From a virus: a stretch of DNA of 37,098 nt. This document shows positions 20,494 through 37,098 of the stretch, piece after piece. A model generated the notes under the pieces. The model had not been told where the DNA came from and searched no databases. It was given only the letters and a program-made list of their open reading frames with translations. Each line of letters opens with the position of its first letter. Position 1 is the stretch's first letter. Position numbers and translations under genes: made by a program. The DNA lies in the IMG/VR virus record IMGVR_UViG_3300014962_000023, positions 1-37,098 of that record; one strand, 5' to 3'.

Positions 20494-22878
20494 TCATGCG
20501 GGCCTCCCGGCGCCCATGGAGTACCGCGCGACGTCGCCTTCGGACTCGTGCGTCTCGGTGATCCACTCCAGAGCCATGGCCTTGGCAATGGCCGCCTCGT
20601 AGCGGTCCCGGTAGCCGCTCTGTAGCGATCCGCGCAGGCACTTGCGCGTGCAGTGCTCGACCTCCTCGGAGTGCTTGGCGACGTGCTTGGCGATAGTCCT
20701 CGCGCAATTGAGGACCGTGTCGTCGGCCTCCTGCACGGCGATGCGCTGCTGCACGGCGGCTACCTTGCGGGATTCGCTGGCAGCCTTCTGAGCGTCCTGT
20801 GCCTTGCGGGCGACGGCCTCGCGGACGAGGTCGGAGGACGACTGGAGGGTGGCGGCCAGGTCCCACAGGAACGGGGTCACGGCCAGGCGCTCGCCGGGGT
20901 TGAGCAGGGCGCCCAGGGCCGTCGCCGTCTTGAGTCGGACGAGCCCGGCGTGGGACTCCAGGCCCAGGCTGCCCGTCCCGGTGACGCGGGCGTGATGCGC
21001 CTCGCGCAGCTCCTCGCGCACGGAGTCGTCGACCGCGACGTAGTCGACGTCCAGGCCGTGGCGGTTGTCGAACCGGGGCGGCCGCCACGGCCTGGCGCTG
21101 GGCCACTCGGGCAGGTCGCGGGGCGACGGCACGGACGGGTCGATGGTGGACGCCCACAGGAACCGCTGAGGAAGTCCCCGATCCTGACGATCCTCGGCCA
21201 GCAGGAAGGACGCGGCGGCGGGCTGGATGCCCAGCAGGGCGGCGCCCCGGTACTGCCCGTCCTCGACGTTGAGCCGCAGGCCGGACGCCCGAGCGGAGTA
21301 GGAGAAGCCCAGTCGCTCGCCTGACCACATCTTCAGCAGGGTCTGCTCGGTCACCTGGCCCTGGCGCTTGATGAGCTCGGCCAGGGCGCTGCCCTCCTCG
21401 TCGAGCACGAGCACGCCGCGGTAGGCGAACTCCAGGCTCTTGCCCGGCTTGCTGTCGGGGTCATCGCGGTCGGCAGGGGGGAAGTCGTAGAACAGGCTGA
21501 CGATTCCCTCGCCGGACCCGAGCGGCCCCTCGGTGACGGGGTGGTTTCCCTCGCGCGGGATCGTCCCCAGGTAGTCGTCGGCTGCCCGGCGTGCCCCGCC
21601 CTTGCCCGTCCCGCTGGGCCCGATGAGGGCCACGAACAGGTTGGGCGTGGAGCGGCCGCCGATGATGGGCGGAATCTTGTACTGCCATGGGATGTGCTGC
21701 GCGACGCGGGCCAGGGCGCAGCCGAGGACGGCGTCGGCCGACACCATGCGCGAGTGCGCTGCCTGCCGGACCTCGGTCAGGACGGGGTGAGCCGTCCAGA
21801 AGTCGGCCGGGATGGCCGCCTCGGGATTCCATGCGGCCGGGGTGGCGTAGTCGACGGGCGGCGTGCCGTAGCCGCTCAGGGCCAGGTGGCGCGCGGCCGC
21901 GGACAGGTCGCCGCCGTGGCTCAGGTGGGCGTACACCTGGCCCTTGCTCATGGCGACCTCGATGGGGAAGTCGGTGCTGGAGGAGAAGCACCAGAACGGG
22001 CCGTCCTCGATGGTGCTCGCCGAGTGCCCCTCGCGCGGGTCCTTGCCCGGCCTCACCCAGTAGTCATGGCCGTCGTCGCCGTGGTGGGAGTAAATCCAGC
22101 CGGCGGGCTCAAGGATGTCCCGCCAGGTCACGCGCGCCCGGTAGTCGTCGAAGGCGCTCAGGCCGGTCGCGGGCCGCGCGGGGGATAGGGCGACGACCGT
22201 CGGGGCCACGGGCTCGGGCGCGGACTCCACGACCGTGGCCGCCTGGTCCAGCGCGAGGTTGAGCAGAAGATGAAGCATGTCGCGCTCCTCGGCCGTCACC
22301 TCGGCCACGGCGGCCGGGCTGGCATCGGTCAGGAGCATGTAGACAGCCCCGTCGGCATGGCCGCGCCGGGCCGACGTCGGGGCGACGATGACGAACCCGC
22401 CCTCGCCGCGAGTCTCGGCGAGCACCTTCTCGCCGTCCATGGCCAGTTTCGTGTTGCCCTTGGCCGGGCCGTCGACGACGCGGATGAAGACATGGATGCC
22501 GCCGCCGGCCGACAGTTCCGCGCAGCCGTGGATGACGCGGGCCAGCAGCTCCTTGAGCCCCGCGAGCTGCATGGTCTCGGCCAGCGCGATGACCGCCTCC
22601 AGTCGCAGGGCCAGCGGCTCCTGCGGCCCCTCGATCTCCAGCATCTCCACGTTGCCCGAGGCCACGCCGCAGATGACGCCGATGCCGGTGTAGCGCCCGG
22701 TCGACAGCCAGGCGTGCAGCGTCTCCCAGTCCGGCCTGGCGTGCTGGTACTCCTTCCACCGCCCGAACGGCCGCTTGCCTCCGTCCTCGTGCGAGGGGAT
22801 GACGCAGAAGCCTGCGTCGTACCAGGCACGGGCTGCCTCGATCAGCGGGCTCTCTGCGCTGGGCTGGGCCACGGTCAC
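20494..22878 (-). CDS. Bifunctional DNA primase-polymerase / helicase
   Basis: 794 aa from GTG 22878, with GGAGG 4 nt upstream; a second GTG at 22872 is possible. The N-terminal prim-pol domain (to about residue 190) starts PLIEAARAWYDAGFCVIPSH and has an acidic metal site EMLEIEGP (E-I-E in place of D-X-D, as in many actinophage members) and GGIHVFIRV. The C-terminal domain (about 360-790) is a P-loop ATPase with Walker A GPSGTGK (about 420-426) and Walker B VLVLDEEG (about 489-496). It should start and drive phage replication. Octamer repeats lie immediately downstream. Confidence 0.9.
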   Translation of the reverse strand: MTVAQPSAESPLIEAARAWYDAGFCVIPSHEDGGKRPFGRWKEYQHARPDWETLHAWLSTGRYTGIGVICGVASGNVEMLEIEGPQEPLALRLEAVIALAETMQLAGLKELLARVIHGCAELSAGGGIHVFIRVVDGPAKGNTKLAMDGEKVLAETRGEGGFVIVAPTSARRGHADGAVYMLLTDASPAAVAEVTAEERDMLHLLLNLALDQAATVVESAPEPVAPTVVALSPARPATGLSAFDDYRARVTWRDILEPAGWIYSHHGDDGHDYWVRPGKDPREGHSASTIEDGPFWCFSSSTDFPIEVAMSKGQVYAHLSHGGDLSAAARHLALSGYGTPPVDYATPAAWNPEAAIPADFWTAHPVLTEVRQAAHSRMVSADAVLGCALARVAQHIPWQYKIPPIIGGRSTPNLFVALIGPSGTGKGGARRAADDYLGTIPREGNHPVTEGPLGSGEGIVSLFYDFPPADRDDPDSKPGKSLEFAYRGVLVLDEEGSALAELIKRQGQVTEQTLLKMWSGERLGFSYSARASGLRLNVEDGQYRGAALLGIQPAAASFLLAEDRQDRGLPQRFLWASTIDPSVPSPRDLPEWPSARPWRPPRFDNRHGLDVDYVAVDDSVREELREAHHARVTGTGSLGLESHAGLVRLKTATALGALLNPGERLAVTPFLWDLAATLQSSSDLVREAVARKAQDAQKAASESRKVAAVQQRIAVQEADDTVLNCARTIAKHVAKHSEEVEHCTRKCLRGSLQSGYRDRYEAAIAKAMALEWITETHESEGDVARYSMGAGRPA

Positions 22879-26249: not shown

Positions 26250-26599
26250 GGTGTCTCCTCAGGCATCCCGTAGCCCGCTGCCCTCAGCAGCGCCACGAGG
26301 TCGGACAGGCAGAGGACGGCCGGCCACTGCTCGATGGACGCGGGGCCCTGGCCGTCGAGGCGCAGGACGCCGATGCCCAGCACGCCGTCGGCCGCTCGCT
26401 CGTTGAGCTGACGCATCAGCGCCGGCAGGTCGAGGCCGCGACGGGCCTTGATCTCCAGGTCGATGCCGACGAGGCCGGTGACGTCGGAGCCCGAGCGCCC
26501 CGCGCCGACGGGCTCGGCGTGCGGGAAGCCGTTGTCGCGGAGGTAATCGGCGACGATGCGCTGGGAGGCGTAGCCGCGGTGCTTGCGGGACTGAGTCAC
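26246..26599 (-). CDS. PD-(D/E)XK nuclease, Holliday-junction-resolvase-like
   Basis: 117 aa from GTG 26599 (GTGA coupling). N-terminal RKHRGYASQRIVADYLRDNG is the resolvase-type helix; GRSGSDVTGLVGIDLEIKARRG holds the D and E-X-K catalytic residues; LPALMRQLNERAADGVLGIGV completes the core. The size is that of small junction resolvases. Probably resolves recombination intermediates before packaging. The first 60 bases are repeated almost exactly at the start of the gene at 26994-27170. Confidence 0.8.
   Translation of the reverse strand: MTQSRKHRGYASQRIVADYLRDNGFPHAEPVGAGRSGSDVTGLVGIDLEIKARRGLDLPALMRQLNERAADGVLGIGVLRLDGQGPASIEQWPAVLCLSDLVALLRAAGYGMPEETP
26540..26599 (-). repeat. 60-bp direct repeat, copy in the nuclease gene start
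   Basis: The first 20 codons of the nuclease gene match the first 20 codons of the gene at 27111-27170 at 55 of 60 positions, including third codon positions. The repeat ends at the codons for ADYL; after it the two genes are unrelated. Confidence 0.9.
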
Positions 26600-26997: not shown

Positions 26998-27170
26998 GAC
27001 GCCGCCTTGGGCGCGTCCAGGTCGCCGATGCACTCGGCGGCCGACATGAGGCAGCCCTGCCAGTAGGCCGCGCGCGAGCGCACGTCGTCGAGGTCCTGGC
27101 CGTCGGCCCAGAGGTAGTCGGCGACGATGCGCTGCGAGGCGTAGCCGCGGTGCTTGCGGCATTGAGTCAT
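26994..27170 (-). CDS. Nuclease-fragment chimera, first gene of the early operon
   Basis: 58 aa, ATG 27170 with GGAG upstream. Residues 1-20 (MTQCRKHRGYASQRIVADYL) copy the start of the resolvase-like nuclease; residues 21-58 (DGQDLDDVRSRAAYWQGCL, then SAAECIGDLD) are different and look like the end of another small helical protein. No catalytic residues remain. It may be a decoy or subunit-interfering fragment, or a recombination product; it is also the leading gene after the divergent operator. Confidence 0.62.
   Translation of the reverse strand: MTQCRKHRGYASQRIVADYLWADGQDLDDVRSRAAYWQGCLMSAAECIGDLDAPKAAS
27111..27170 (-). repeat. 60-bp direct repeat, copy in the early operon's first gene
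   Basis: Same 60-bp element as at 26540-26599, with five differences. It begins at the start codon of its gene, so it could have been copied with a translation initiation region. Confidence 0.9.
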
Positions 27171-27187: not shown

Positions 27188-27218
27188 TTGACAAGGTGTA
27201 GGTACACCGTGCTACGGT
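27188..27218 (+). promoter_or_regulatory. Rightward promoter of the RHH operon
   Basis: A perfect -35 TTGACA (27188-27193) is followed after 19 nt by TACGGT (27213-27218), matching TAnnnT. The spacing is long, which suggests activation or repression by a bound protein. The ribosome site AAGGGGG lies at 27234-27240 and ATG at 27246. The operator palindrome covers everything after the -35. Confidence 0.6.
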
Positions 27219-27230
27219 GTACCTACACCT
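27194..27230. promoter_or_regulatory. 37-bp palindromic operator between divergent operons
   Basis: Perfect 17-bp arms (27194-27210 and 27214-27230) flank GCT. Each arm contains its own 14-bp dyad: GGTGTAGGTACACC (27195-27208) and GGTGTACCTACACC (27216-27229). The dyad centres are 21 bp apart, two helical turns, which suits two protein dimers on the same DNA face. It overlaps the rightward promoter and lies 24 nt from the first early gene on the other strand. Confidence 0.85.
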
Positions 27231-27245
27231 ACTAAGGGGGACGAC

Positions 27246-27464
27246 ATGGGAACTCGATTCACTACCATCAGCCAGCGCAAGTGGGCGACAATGGGCGCCG
27301 CCTACACCGACCAGTGGATCGGCACGCGGGTGATCTTCACGGGCTGGAACGGCGAGCGCCATGAGGGGGTCATCTCCCGCTTTGACGGGAACTACCCCGT
27401 CGCCACATTCGCCGACGGACGCTGGGCGCGACTTGACCGCACCATTGAGATCGTCAATGCCTAA
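27246..27464 (+). CDS. 72-aa protein of the plus-strand switch operon
   Basis: 72 aa, ATG 27246 with AAGGGGG upstream. The N-terminus is basic (FTTISQRKWATMGAAYTD); the rest looks like a small SH3/KOW-like barrel (GTRVIFTGWNGERHEGVISR, ATFADGRWARLDRTIEIV). It overlaps the RHH gene by 8 nt, so both are translated together. It could be a partner or antagonist of the RHH protein; I do not recognise the family. Confidence 0.7.
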   Translation: MGTRFTTISQRKWATMGAAYTDQWIGTRVIFTGWNGERHEGVISRFDGNYPVATFADGRWARLDRTIEIVNA

Positions 27465-27600
27465 CGCGCCCAAGACTCCAGCCCGCAACATCCGCATCCC
27501 CGACGACCTCTGGCTCGCCGCGCAGGATAAGGCGGCAGCCAAGGGGGAGTCCGTGTCCGATGTGGTGCGTCGGGCGCTGGAGCGGTACGTCAGTCGCTGA
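27457..27600 (+). CDS. Ribbon-helix-helix (CopG/Arc-like) DNA-binding protein
   Basis: 47 aa. The ATG lies 8 nt inside the upstream gene. NIRIPDDLWLAAQDKAAAKG then ESVSDVVRRALERYV has the short strand, helix A, turn and helix B of the RHH fold, as in CopG and Arc. Such proteins dimerise and insert a beta ribbon into the major groove, usually at tandem or palindromic operators, like the 37-bp palindrome 227 bp upstream. Autoregulation and repression of the divergent early operon are likely; it is the only plausible repressor I see. Its stop is 1 nt from the end of the convergent methyltransferase. Confidence 0.82.
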   Translation: MPNAPKTPARNIRIPDDLWLAAQDKAAAKGESVSDVVRRALERYVSR

Positions 27601-27601
27601 C

Positions 27602-28663
27602 TCATGCGGCCACCTCCGCGACGCGGGGCAGCAGCAGCGACAGGGCGAGCGCGGCCTGCTGCGGCACGACCCCATTGCCTAGTGCCTTGAGTTGGTCGTT
27701 GCGGCTGATCCCGATGGCGGGGTCGGTGACGTGGCCTGCGGGCAGGCCCATCATCCATTCGACGAACGCGGGGCTCAGCCGTGGTTGTCCGGTTCGCCCA
27801 GGCTCAGTGGGGGCTGGTGCGGGTCGTCCGATGGTGCGTTCCCATCGGGCGATGGCGGGGCGGTAGTCGCCCCAATTGATGCGAGTGCGTTCTCCAAGTT
27901 CTGCGGCTGATCCGATGGCCGAGCCCAGATATTCTGGTTCCTGTCCTCGCCGTTCTGCGCGCGTGGCGTCGGCAACATCCGCTGAGCCTCGATCGCCAGC
28001 GATCTCCCGTGCGGCGCGGGCCTGCCGTCCGACGACATCTGACGCGGGGCCCACTCGTCCCACCACTCCAGCGTCTTGCCCTCGCCCATGTCGTTGACCG
28101 CTGGCGTCGGCAGCAGCGCCGCCGCCACGTTCGCCAGCGAGGCGTAGTCCGTCGTGCTGCTCGGCAGGCCACGCGAGTGATCCGCTACCGGGGTAGGCAA
28201 CGATGAAGAGTCGGGCGCGCTGGTGGCAGGCACCGGCGTCGGACGCTCGTACAAGTCCCCATTCCGCAGACCACCCCACGCTGGCAAGGTCAGCGAGGAC
28301 AGTGTCAAAGCCCAAAGTGAGGTGACCTCGGACGTTTTCCAGCACGACGAGCCGGGGTCCCAGGTCGCGAATGGCGCGCAGGACATGAGGCCATAGGTGT
28401 CGGACGTCATCGGTTCCCTTTCGCTTGCCCGCGTGGCTGAACGGCTGGCAGGGGTAGCCGCCGGTGAGGATGTCCACGGGCTCCAGCTGCGTGAAGTCCA
28501 CGGCGGTCACGTCGCCGTAGTTGGGGACGTCGGGCCAGTGGTGGGCCAGGATCGCGGACGGGGCCTTGTCGTACTCAACGTGCCACGCGACCTCGCCCCC
28601 CAGGACCGACTGCACGCCCATGTCCAGGCCGCCGTAGCCGGAGAACAGGGAGCCGATCCTCAT
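27602..28663 (-). CDS. C5-cytosine DNA methyltransferase
   Basis: 353 aa from ATG 28663, ATGA-coupled to the Lsr2-like gene (an upstream in-frame start at 28681 is unlikely). Motif I is SLFSGYGGLDMG (residues 5-16); motif IV GGYPCQPFSHAG has the catalytic C72; motif VI is VVLENVRG; motif VIII QRARLF; motif X GNGVVPQQA near the C-terminus. The linker between VIII and IX, with repeated VADA-type units, is the target-recognition region. No cognate restriction enzyme is beside it, so it probably protects phage DNA from host restriction. Confidence 0.93.
   Translation of the reverse strand: MRIGSLFSGYGGLDMGVQSVLGGEVAWHVEYDKAPSAILAHHWPDVPNYGDVTAVDFTQLEPVDILTGGYPCQPFSHAGKRKGTDDVRHLWPHVLRAIRDLGPRLVVLENVRGHLTLGFDTVLADLASVGWSAEWGLVRASDAGACHQRARLFIVAYPGSGSLAWPAEQHDGLRLAGERGGGAAADASGQRHGRGQDAGVVGRVGPASDVVGRQARAAREIAGDRGSADVADATRAERRGQEPEYLGSAIGSAAELGERTRINWGDYRPAIARWERTIGRPAPAPTEPGRTGQPRLSPAFVEWMMGLPAGHVTDPAIGISRNDQLKALGNGVVPQQAALALSLLLPRVAEVAA
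27775..28410 (-). other. Alternative +1-frame ORF inside the methyltransferase (probably a shadow)
   Basis: 211 codons are open in the +1 frame relative to the methyltransferase. The product is rich in Ser/Pro/Trp with repeated LPTP units (SSLPTPVADHSRG, LLPTPAVNDMGEGK, MLPTPRAQNGEDR). LPTP units are the +1 reading of VADA units of the methyltransferase, and SSCWKTS is the +1 reading of VVLENV. Proteins of this look are annotated in other actinophage genomes, so I record it, but a frame shadow is the simplest explanation. Confidence 0.2.
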
Positions 28664-28839
28664 GCGCGGCTCATCTCCCACTCCGCGTACCGCTGGTAGA
28701 CGTCGGCAGGGATGCGGCCGCGGCGGCCGACGTCAAGGCCGCGCTCGGCGGCCCAGGCGCGGACCACGGCGGGCGTCGGGCGGGTGGCGGCCTTCACCTC
28801 GACGGCGAAGGCGGGGTCCATGCGGGTCTCGTCGGTCAT
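28660..28839 (-). CDS. Lsr2-like DNA-binding mini-protein
   Basis: 59 aa. AVVRAWAAERGLDVGRRGRI then PADVYQRYAEWE is the C-terminal AT-hook-like DNA-binding domain of Lsr2, including the RGR motif that enters the minor groove of AT-rich DNA. The N-terminal dimerisation domain of full Lsr2 is missing. A short Asp/Thr-rich start precedes it. It is coupled by ATGA to both neighbours. It could compete with host Lsr2, the xenogeneic silencer, for prophage or early promoters. Confidence 0.85.
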   Translation of the reverse strand: MTDETRMDPAFAVEVKAATRPTPAVVRAWAAERGLDVGRRGRIPADVYQRYAEWEMSRA

Positions 28840-29608: not shown

Positions 29609-29650
29609 TTCGTAATCGAGTGGTTCCTGGTTCGAGTCCAGGTGCAGGAG
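29609..29650 (+). other. attP: Candidate attP core: 3' half of a Thr(CGT)-like tRNA
   Basis: The segment reads as the 3' part of a tRNA: anticodon loop TTCGTAA with CGT at 29611-29613, five-base stem strand TCGAG, variable loop TGGTT, T-arm CCTGG (29626-29630), loop TTCGAGT (29631-29637), CCAGG (29638-29642), acceptor strand TGCAGGA and discriminator G (29650). The 5' side does not pair, so this is not a tRNA gene. Phage integrases of the tyrosine type commonly use such a segment to integrate and restore the host tRNA. It lies about 195 nt upstream of the integrase start. Confidence 0.82.
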
Positions 29651-29845
29651 CAAGAGGGGTAGAGATGTCCGTTTCGGGCATTTTGCGACCAGTGTGGGAT
29701 ACATCACACAAAATTTCGCGACACGGGTGCGTTACATGCCCCGTTTCAGCCCCCTTCGCCCCATCTCAACGTCCTTTGATTCGCGTGCCGAACGCGCACG
29801 AGAGGTCGACGATGTGGACACCAACTACGGCATCGGGGGATATGA

Positions 29846-36331: not shown

Positions 36332-37098
36332 CGGTACTGGCTCCAAGCACCGAGAACCGTATTGGACGAGGCGCCCTTAATGATCGTGAACGTGAACACG
36401 TCAATCCCGGCAGTCTGGTTCGCCTGCGAGGCGGTCGGCGGCTTGGAGTTGCCCAGCCACTTCACCGTGGCCGCAGAGCCGTCGATATTGATCGTCGTCG
36501 GGTAGTAGGCCGTCGTACCGTTGCTAATCATCCACACGATCGTGATGGAGTCGCCGGTCGCCAGCATCGAAGCCAGCGTCGTCGTGCTGTTGCCCCGCAT
36601 GTTGATCGTGTGATTAGCCGAGGCGTCGGTGGAGTAGTACCAGATGGTCGAAGTCTTGGCGTCGATATTGATCGTGCCCGTGGCCGCTGAGGCGACCACA
36701 TTGCACCGCTCCTCCGGCCCGAGGTTGACGAGGTTGGACAGCAGCGCCGTCCACGACGCGGCAGAGCCGTCCGTGGTCAGCACCTTCCCGCCGTTGCTCG
36801 TCTGCGTCGGCAGCCCCGAGGCGGCAGCCGCCCACTTGATCCCAGCCGCACTAGCAGCGTCAGCGGTCAGGACATAGCCATCCGTCCCGGCAGCCAGCGC
36901 CGAAGGCGTGCTAGCCGCCGAAGCCCCCAGCACCACGCCCTTGGCAGAAAAGAGGGCATTACTGACCTTCGCCGCCAGGTCCGTGGTCAGGTTCGTCACC
37001 TGGGACTGGGCGAGGGTGACGGGGTCGCTGCCCGCCGAGGCGTGCGAGGAGGCGTGGGCGGTCGGCGTGCGGGAGTCGGTGAACCGGGAGTCGTTGCC
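36328..37098 (-). CDS. Collagen-like tail fibre protein, C-terminal part
   Basis: 3' part of the gene that starts at 1154 (37022-37098 duplicates 1-77). After the stalk it continues [17 protein letters not shown], then [40 protein letters not shown] (twice in variant form), and a C-terminal beta domain with [20 protein letters not shown] and [11 protein letters not shown], ending VLGAWSQYR. The [10 protein letters not shown]-type repeats are common in phage fibres. The C-terminal domain is probably the exposed tip. Confidence 0.88.
37022..37098. repeat. Terminal direct repeat, copy 2 (contig circularity)
   Basis: Exact copy of 1-77. See copy 1. Positions 37022-37098 should be dropped to obtain the unit genome. 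Confidence 0.93.

Follow-up and report, generated by a model that had tools for sequence, protein, structure and literature searches.

The Arc and Mnt proteins of phage P22, small ribbon-helix-helix (RHH) proteins of the immI region, control the antirepressor gene ant. CopG of plasmid pMV158, an RHH autorepressor of 45 aa, acts on a symmetric element that covers the promoter of its own gene, which precedes repB in the operon that sets plasmid copy number. In E. coli, dimers of the RHH protein RelB bind TGT[A/C]A hexads arranged as adjacent 12-bp half-sites and autorepress relBE (PMC2812701). Mycobacteriophage morons and other prophage-expressed loci have their own promoters, and some lie in reverse orientation inside early operons (PMC8092301, PMC6426596).

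The locus described here displays similarities to each of these systems, along with clear differences. It encodes a small phage RHH protein of a family (phrog_6506) that is labelled Arc-like repressor, but in contrast to P22 Arc/Mnt, the RHH gene is the last of a two-gene operon in which the other gene is exchanged from phage to phage. As with CopG, a short RHH protein is paired with a symmetric element that covers the promoter driving it, whereas the RHH gene again comes last and the partner is a variable cargo gene. The predicted placement of an RHH protein on paired palindromes recalls RelB and relO, and the 12-13 bp spacing class of the family resembles relO; RelB, however, carries a C-terminal toxin-binding region and has RelE as co-repressor, while here the sites are spaced by 21 bp and nothing recognisable as a toxin was found. 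The morons share the reverse orientation and the separate promoter, but the published loci are toxin-antitoxin, polymorphic-toxin and defence loci (PMC8092301, PMC6426596). We propose, with a probability of roughly 0.7, that the palindrome is the control element of an autorepressed, moron-like accessory cassette that recurs in many actinobacterial viruses.

The window, which is the whole stretch of DNA that was analysed, is a viral contig of 37,098 bp with the siphophage genes for terminase, portal, capsid, tape measure, endolysin and a tyrosine integrase. Its two ends are identical over 77 bp; the contig is therefore probably a complete genome, either circularly permuted or circularised. The features discussed below are collected in Table 1.

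Table 1. Features of the cassette and its surroundings in the window (strand: +, rightward; -, leftward;., none assigned).
Feature	Position	Strand	Basis or remark
Identical contig ends	1..77 and 37022..37098		77 bp
RusA-start duplication	26528..26598 and 27099..27169		71 bp, 89% identical; copy heads a 58-aa ORF
-35 hexamer TTGACA	27188..27193	+	abuts dyad 1; sequence and consensus across loci
37-bp palindrome with two operator dyads	27194..27230	.	inverted-repeat and dyad pattern scans
Operator dyad 1	27195..27208	.	GGTGTA-GG-TACACC; family-wide motif
Probable -10 hexamer TACGGT	27213..27218	+	19 bp from -35; overlaps dyad 2; consensus only
Operator dyad 2	27216..27229	.	GGTGTA-CC-TACACC; 21 bp from dyad 1, centre to centre
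Cargo gene for P0001 (72 aa, SH3/Tudor-like small beta-barrel)	27246..27464	+	position in relatives, AlphaFold, Foldseek
Putative RHH autorepressor gene, 47-aa P0002, Arc-like	27457..27600	+	phrog_6506, profiles, model
C5 cytosine DNA methylase	27602..28681	-	PF00145, E=1e-36; tail-to-tail with the RHH gene
Mini-Lsr2, 59 aa	28660..28839	-	Lsr2 DNA-binding domain (PF23359)
Probable attP	29614..29652		upstream of integrase; 39 bp match the G001 equivalent at 95% identity

The initial annotation had described a near-perfect 37-bp palindrome with two GGTGTA-NN-TACACC dyads, centred 21 bp apart and overlapped by a TTGACA promoter, and each part of this description holds. Symmetry extends over 34 of the 37 positions, with perfect 17-bp arms around a 3-nt loop, both dyads are perfect, and TTGACA lies upstream of the two-gene pair. 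No other short-loop inverted repeat of the window comes close to the palindrome in length, the runner-up having arms of only 11 bp, and the paired-dyad pattern occurs a single time in the whole window and never in 100 shuffles. Positions 27188-27240 read TTGACA, then AGGTGTAGGTACACCGTGCTACGGTGTACCTACACCT. The next TANNNT hexamer after TTGACA is TACGGT, which is situated between the dyads and partly inside them. A stricter sigma-70 promoter scan returned no score for the TTGACA promoter at the palindrome. Among 33 loci with paired operators, TTGAC or TTGC[AG] stands just before the first dyad in 22 (6% in the background), and in 19 it is followed 16-19 bp on by TANNNT, between or within the dyads (0.15% in the background). 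The first codon of the cargo gene is often found about 30-35 nt past the start of the second dyad in loci of the family. No exact copy of the whole 35-bp operator, symmetric flanks included, turned up in the viral contigs searched, and an Rfam scan of the window identified no family.

The palindrome had also been regarded as a divider between a leftward early operon and a rightward pair of genes. The rightward pair, coding for the 72-aa protein and the RHH protein, stands, but the palindrome does not mark the start of the leftward operon. Since the leftward C5-methylase and mini-Lsr2 genes lie beyond the far side of the pair, the cassette forms an internal island in reverse orientation.

The two ORFs of the island overlap by 8 nt. 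P0002 matches phrog_6506 with E=3e-18 and falls just under the cut-off of Pfam RHH_1 (E=0.0012, 19.1 vs 20.5 bits), and the profile of its family matches the structures of AvtR, SeqA, ORF56 and omega. These profiles place P0002 in the RHH (Arc/CopG) class. Its model, made for the monomer only, displays an extended N-terminus followed by helices at residues 16-28 and 33-46 (pLDDT 91), and the ribbon is presumably of the Arc type, with N-x-R before helix 1. The AlphaFold model of P0001 is a confident small beta-barrel (pLDDT 92.9), for which Foldseek returned SH3/Tudor folds with a probability of 1.0 at E-values of about 0.02-0.1 and above. Sequence searches for P0001, by related loci and by tblastn in the phage collection, found no relatives, and comparison with Pfam, PHROG and PADLOC gave no match. 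Its relatives were detected by position alone, upstream of RHH genes, and occupy the same place in L094, L095, L113 and L169.

The relation between the RHH gene and the palindrome was examined by comparison with other genomes. RHH relatives were gathered from phage records, viral contigs and bacterial genomes, and locus after locus, paired dyads of the general form TGT-NNNN-ACA appear upstream of the RHH gene. In the forward test set of 69 loci, non-redundant at 90% RHH identity, a strict dyad pair lies within the 750 bp examined upstream of the RHH gene in 28, against a shuffle mean of 0.0 and against 3 of 418 control segments taken from the same loci. Another 29 of the 69, about 40%, have no strict dyad within those 750 bp; variant dyads occur among such relatives, as in Hedwig, Ecliptus and L103. 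The same operator type is found at L100, L101, L116 and L123, where it lies upstream of an RHH gene but beyond the 750-bp limit, and the contig of L139 bears an L100-type operator with an RHH gene of its own (L210). The distances between dyad centres fall into two groups, 12-13 bp and 20-25 bp.

The reverse test, in which the DNA pattern alone was scanned over 2.9 million viral contigs, points in the same direction. Two copies of GTGTANNTACAC placed 21 bp apart were matched 15 times, with an RHH gene downstream in 13, and all 8 matches to a pair of GTGTNATNACAC 24 bp apart are followed by an RHH gene. The AT-rich 12-bp form led to an RHH gene in 11 of the 80 loci read, and in 11 of 17 in GC-rich contigs; this form is not specific because the pattern is too simple. 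Divergent RHH proteins that the protein search had missed (L197, L198, L203) were reached through the operator DNA. The proposal that the RHH protein acts on the tandem dyads is thus strongly supported by comparative sequence evidence, namely by co-occurrence in both directions and by the covariation of protein and operator described below. On the strength of this evidence we take P0002 as the almost certain ligand of the palindrome, and the pairing of RHH protein and operator appears very likely. One contig, 3300012668_000076, carries three different RHH genes of the family (L129, L145, L154), which suggests co-existing repressors that possibly differ in operator specificity.

The identity of the dyad centre covaries with a single residue of the ribbon, x in the motif R-x-[ILVF]-R, which is N11 in P0002. 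Dyads of the TGTA-GG/CC-TACA type accompany N at residue 11 in 11 of 11 cases, a count that includes the near variant AG of L004, whereas with any other residue they occur in 1 of 29 (Fisher 5e-9, with no correction for phylogeny and with dyad classes defined once the data were known). The tendency is for A at this position to pair with TGTATATACA and for S/T-F to pair with GTGTCATGACAC; Q, seen in the loci that the DNA scan recovered, tends to accompany GTGTAGCTACAC. Dyad type tracks residue 11 and not overall likeness, because L115 (77% identical to P0002, with T) and L112 (74%, with S) have an operator of the GTGTCATGACAC type, while the more distant L161 (38%), L134 (53%) and L141 (57%) combine N with the dyad type of the window. 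In P22 Arc, bases are contacted via the same ribbon positions. The divergent L198, L203 and L197 extend the possible code, in that GTGTAGCTACAC accompanies R-Q-[IM]-R and GTGTACGTACAC accompanies R-S-V-R.

The cargo gene is variable. Between operator and RHH gene, 52 ORFs from 42 loci fall into 28 families, a figure that is approximate because some ORFs may be miscalled. They include a VG64-family protein with a lipoprotein-like signal in L112 and L168 and, behind looser operators, the Dam methylases (PF05869) of L120 and L130. At L115, the operator lies directly 5' of the RHH gene, with no cargo between them.

The position of the cassette changes as well, differing among the window, G001, G004 and Majeke. 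The sister phage G001 has attP (39 bp, 95%), integrase, mini-Lsr2, RusA and the replication genes in common with the window; there, mini-Lsr2 runs straight into RusA, and the cassette with its convergent methylase is located between the tail and lysis genes. In the window, methylase and cassette lie between mini-Lsr2 and RusA, and in G004 they are also distant from the integrase. The start of RusA is duplicated beside the cassette in the window, and this duplicate may be a scar of cassette insertion. Judged from these genome comparisons, the changing position of the cassette is the behaviour of a moron. The cassette has a promoter of its own, as assigned by consensus, runs in reverse to its neighbours and is mosaic in presence and position.

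The anatomy of the cassette, the pairing of RHH gene and operator, the swapping of cargo and the change of position together argue for the autoregulated accessory cassette as the best explanation, at the level at which sequence can speak. One promoter would drive both the variable cargo gene and the 47-aa RHH repressor overlapping its end. Dimers of the repressor would insert their N-terminal ribbons into the two dyads, which span the -35/-10 region, and would thereby occlude RNA polymerase, an arrangement that would keep the operon's output at a low, self-determined level. Transcription of the leftward early genes would run through the reverse-oriented island in antisense, and expression of the cassette is for this reason expected mainly in the prophage or before the early operon starts. 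Within this model, we infer RHH binding, repression, the timing of expression and a benefit from the cargo. An intact cassette is present in prophi_GD43-6, a prophage described as mostly silent in the lysogen except for a toxin locus (PMC8092301); the published lysogen RNA-seq (PMC8092301; GSE161710) does not single out the cassette.

A convergent methylase gene is a frequent, though not universal, companion of the cassette, and is also seen at Ramsey L010, prophiT46-2 L012, DotProduct L013 and G001/L094. We set aside the view that this neighbour is the main target of the RHH protein, as the window has no dyad near the start of the methylase gene. It is further weakened by the often convergent orientation of the methylase and by the many cassettes that, by eye, have no methylase-like convergent neighbour.

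The initial annotation had viewed the locus as a candidate lysis-lysogeny switch, with the 72-aa protein as a possible co-factor or anti-repressor. In such a switch, P0002 would maintain lysogeny by repressing a leftward lytic promoter that overlaps this operator. The operator lies 24 bp upstream of the divergent leftward ORF (27170), and the window has an integrase, while a search for HTH_3, HTH_17, HTH_31 and HTH_26 domains and PHROG scans of the main ORFs found no HTH repressor in it. The integrase-bearing relatives G001, G004 and G020 are likewise without HTH_3, HTH_31 or HTH_26 matches. The statement that no classical HTH repressor is visible thus stands for these domains and for the PHROG scans, but a DNA-binding protein, mini-Lsr2, is present. 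An immunity repressor would be expected to have binding sites at other, lytic promoters besides that of its own gene, and to keep a conserved place in the int/attP control region. We found no such sites, and the cassette keeps no such place. In the window and the relatives checked, the cassette promoter is the one place with exact copies of the operator sites; this applies to the window itself, to Hedwig (in the form GGTGC-N4-GCACC) and to seven records with the GTGTANNTACAC operator. In the GTGTYATRACAC group, the exact sites are found only near cassettes, L105 and L100 having three or four. Sites with two mismatches at 21924 and 29527 in the window were rejected as chance, such sites being no commoner than chance once the two real dyads are left out.

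The surroundings of the cassette also argue against a switch. Leftward genes are found upstream of the island too, the G001 cassette lies away from the attP-int-Lsr2-RusA block, and between close relatives the position shifts and the partner gene is swapped. Moreover, Majeke, Ramsey, Hedwig and prophiT46-2 combine the cassette or its RHH gene with a separate annotated repressor near the integrase. With sites confined to the cassette, separate repressors in annotated relatives and a mobile cassette, the immunity claim is not supported, and we consider this reading unlikely. Within the window's own clade, the locus may still serve as a switch, with low probability, since no HTH_3-type repressor was found in four related phages that have an integrase (the window, G001, G004 and G020).

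Paired palindromes over the promoter of an RHH autorepressor, together with overlapping genes, are typical of many toxin-antitoxin operons, and the toxin-antitoxin pairs of M. abscessus prophages often lie on the opposite strand inside early genes, some being expressed in the lysogen (PMC8092301). The cassette might accordingly be seen as a type II system such as RelBE or FitAB, with the upstream gene as toxin and the RHH protein as antitoxin and autorepressor. At 47 aa, with helix 2 ending at residue 46, P0002 displays no obvious toxin-neutralising tail and no neutralising region beyond its DNA-binding domain. P0001 is not recognisable as a toxin by Pfam, PHROG or PADLOC, and its fold is Tudor/SH3-like instead. 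PADLOC returned nothing for the cargo proteins as a group, which are unrelated across phages and include Dam methylases and lipoprotein-like proteins, and some cassettes, such as L115, lack cargo in the interval from operator to RHH gene. A toxin-antitoxin function is hence quite improbable. That the palindrome instead acts as RNA, its 17-bp hairpin in the leftward transcript terminating or processing early mRNA, is highly improbable despite the strong hairpin predicted in the window, as a terminator scan gave no call there and relatives keep the two dyads and not the 37-bp hairpin, the spacer being asymmetric in L094 and L095, where both dyads are present with CC at their centre, and the spacing being 12 bp in others.

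Each element of the autoregulated cassette is already known, as are autoregulated RHH repressors in general. What appears new is the chassis with exchangeable cargo and its series of specificities: the family supplies dozens of naturally occurring pairs of repressor and operator that enclose different cargo, and we found no description of such a shared chassis in the literature covered, which included few subscription journals. The pairs form a natural data set for the code by which RHH ribbons recognise bases, a question so far tied to few model proteins. The DNA signature can in addition serve to find accessory gene slots in actinophages, possibly with new defence or host-modifying genes. 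A more far-reaching joint reading, to which we give little credence, would hold that RHH protein and paired operator are a widespread self-regulating slot of actinophages with orthogonal specificities set largely via one ribbon residue, and that the same exchangeable chassis may double as the only immunity device in its smallest carriers, this 37-kb phage among them. Caution is appropriate with genes annotated as Arc-like repressors, which should not be named immunity repressors by default. The small integrase-bearing clade without a recognisable HTH repressor raises the testable question of how its lysogeny is kept up.

The mini-Lsr2 protein comprises little beyond the Lsr2 DNA-binding domain. 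Its gene is divergent from the integrase across attP and is kept in G001, and it is a candidate regulator in this clade without HTH repressors. The probable attP itself resembles the 3' half of a tRNA, with a TTCGTAA loop and a GGTTCGAGTCC T-arm.
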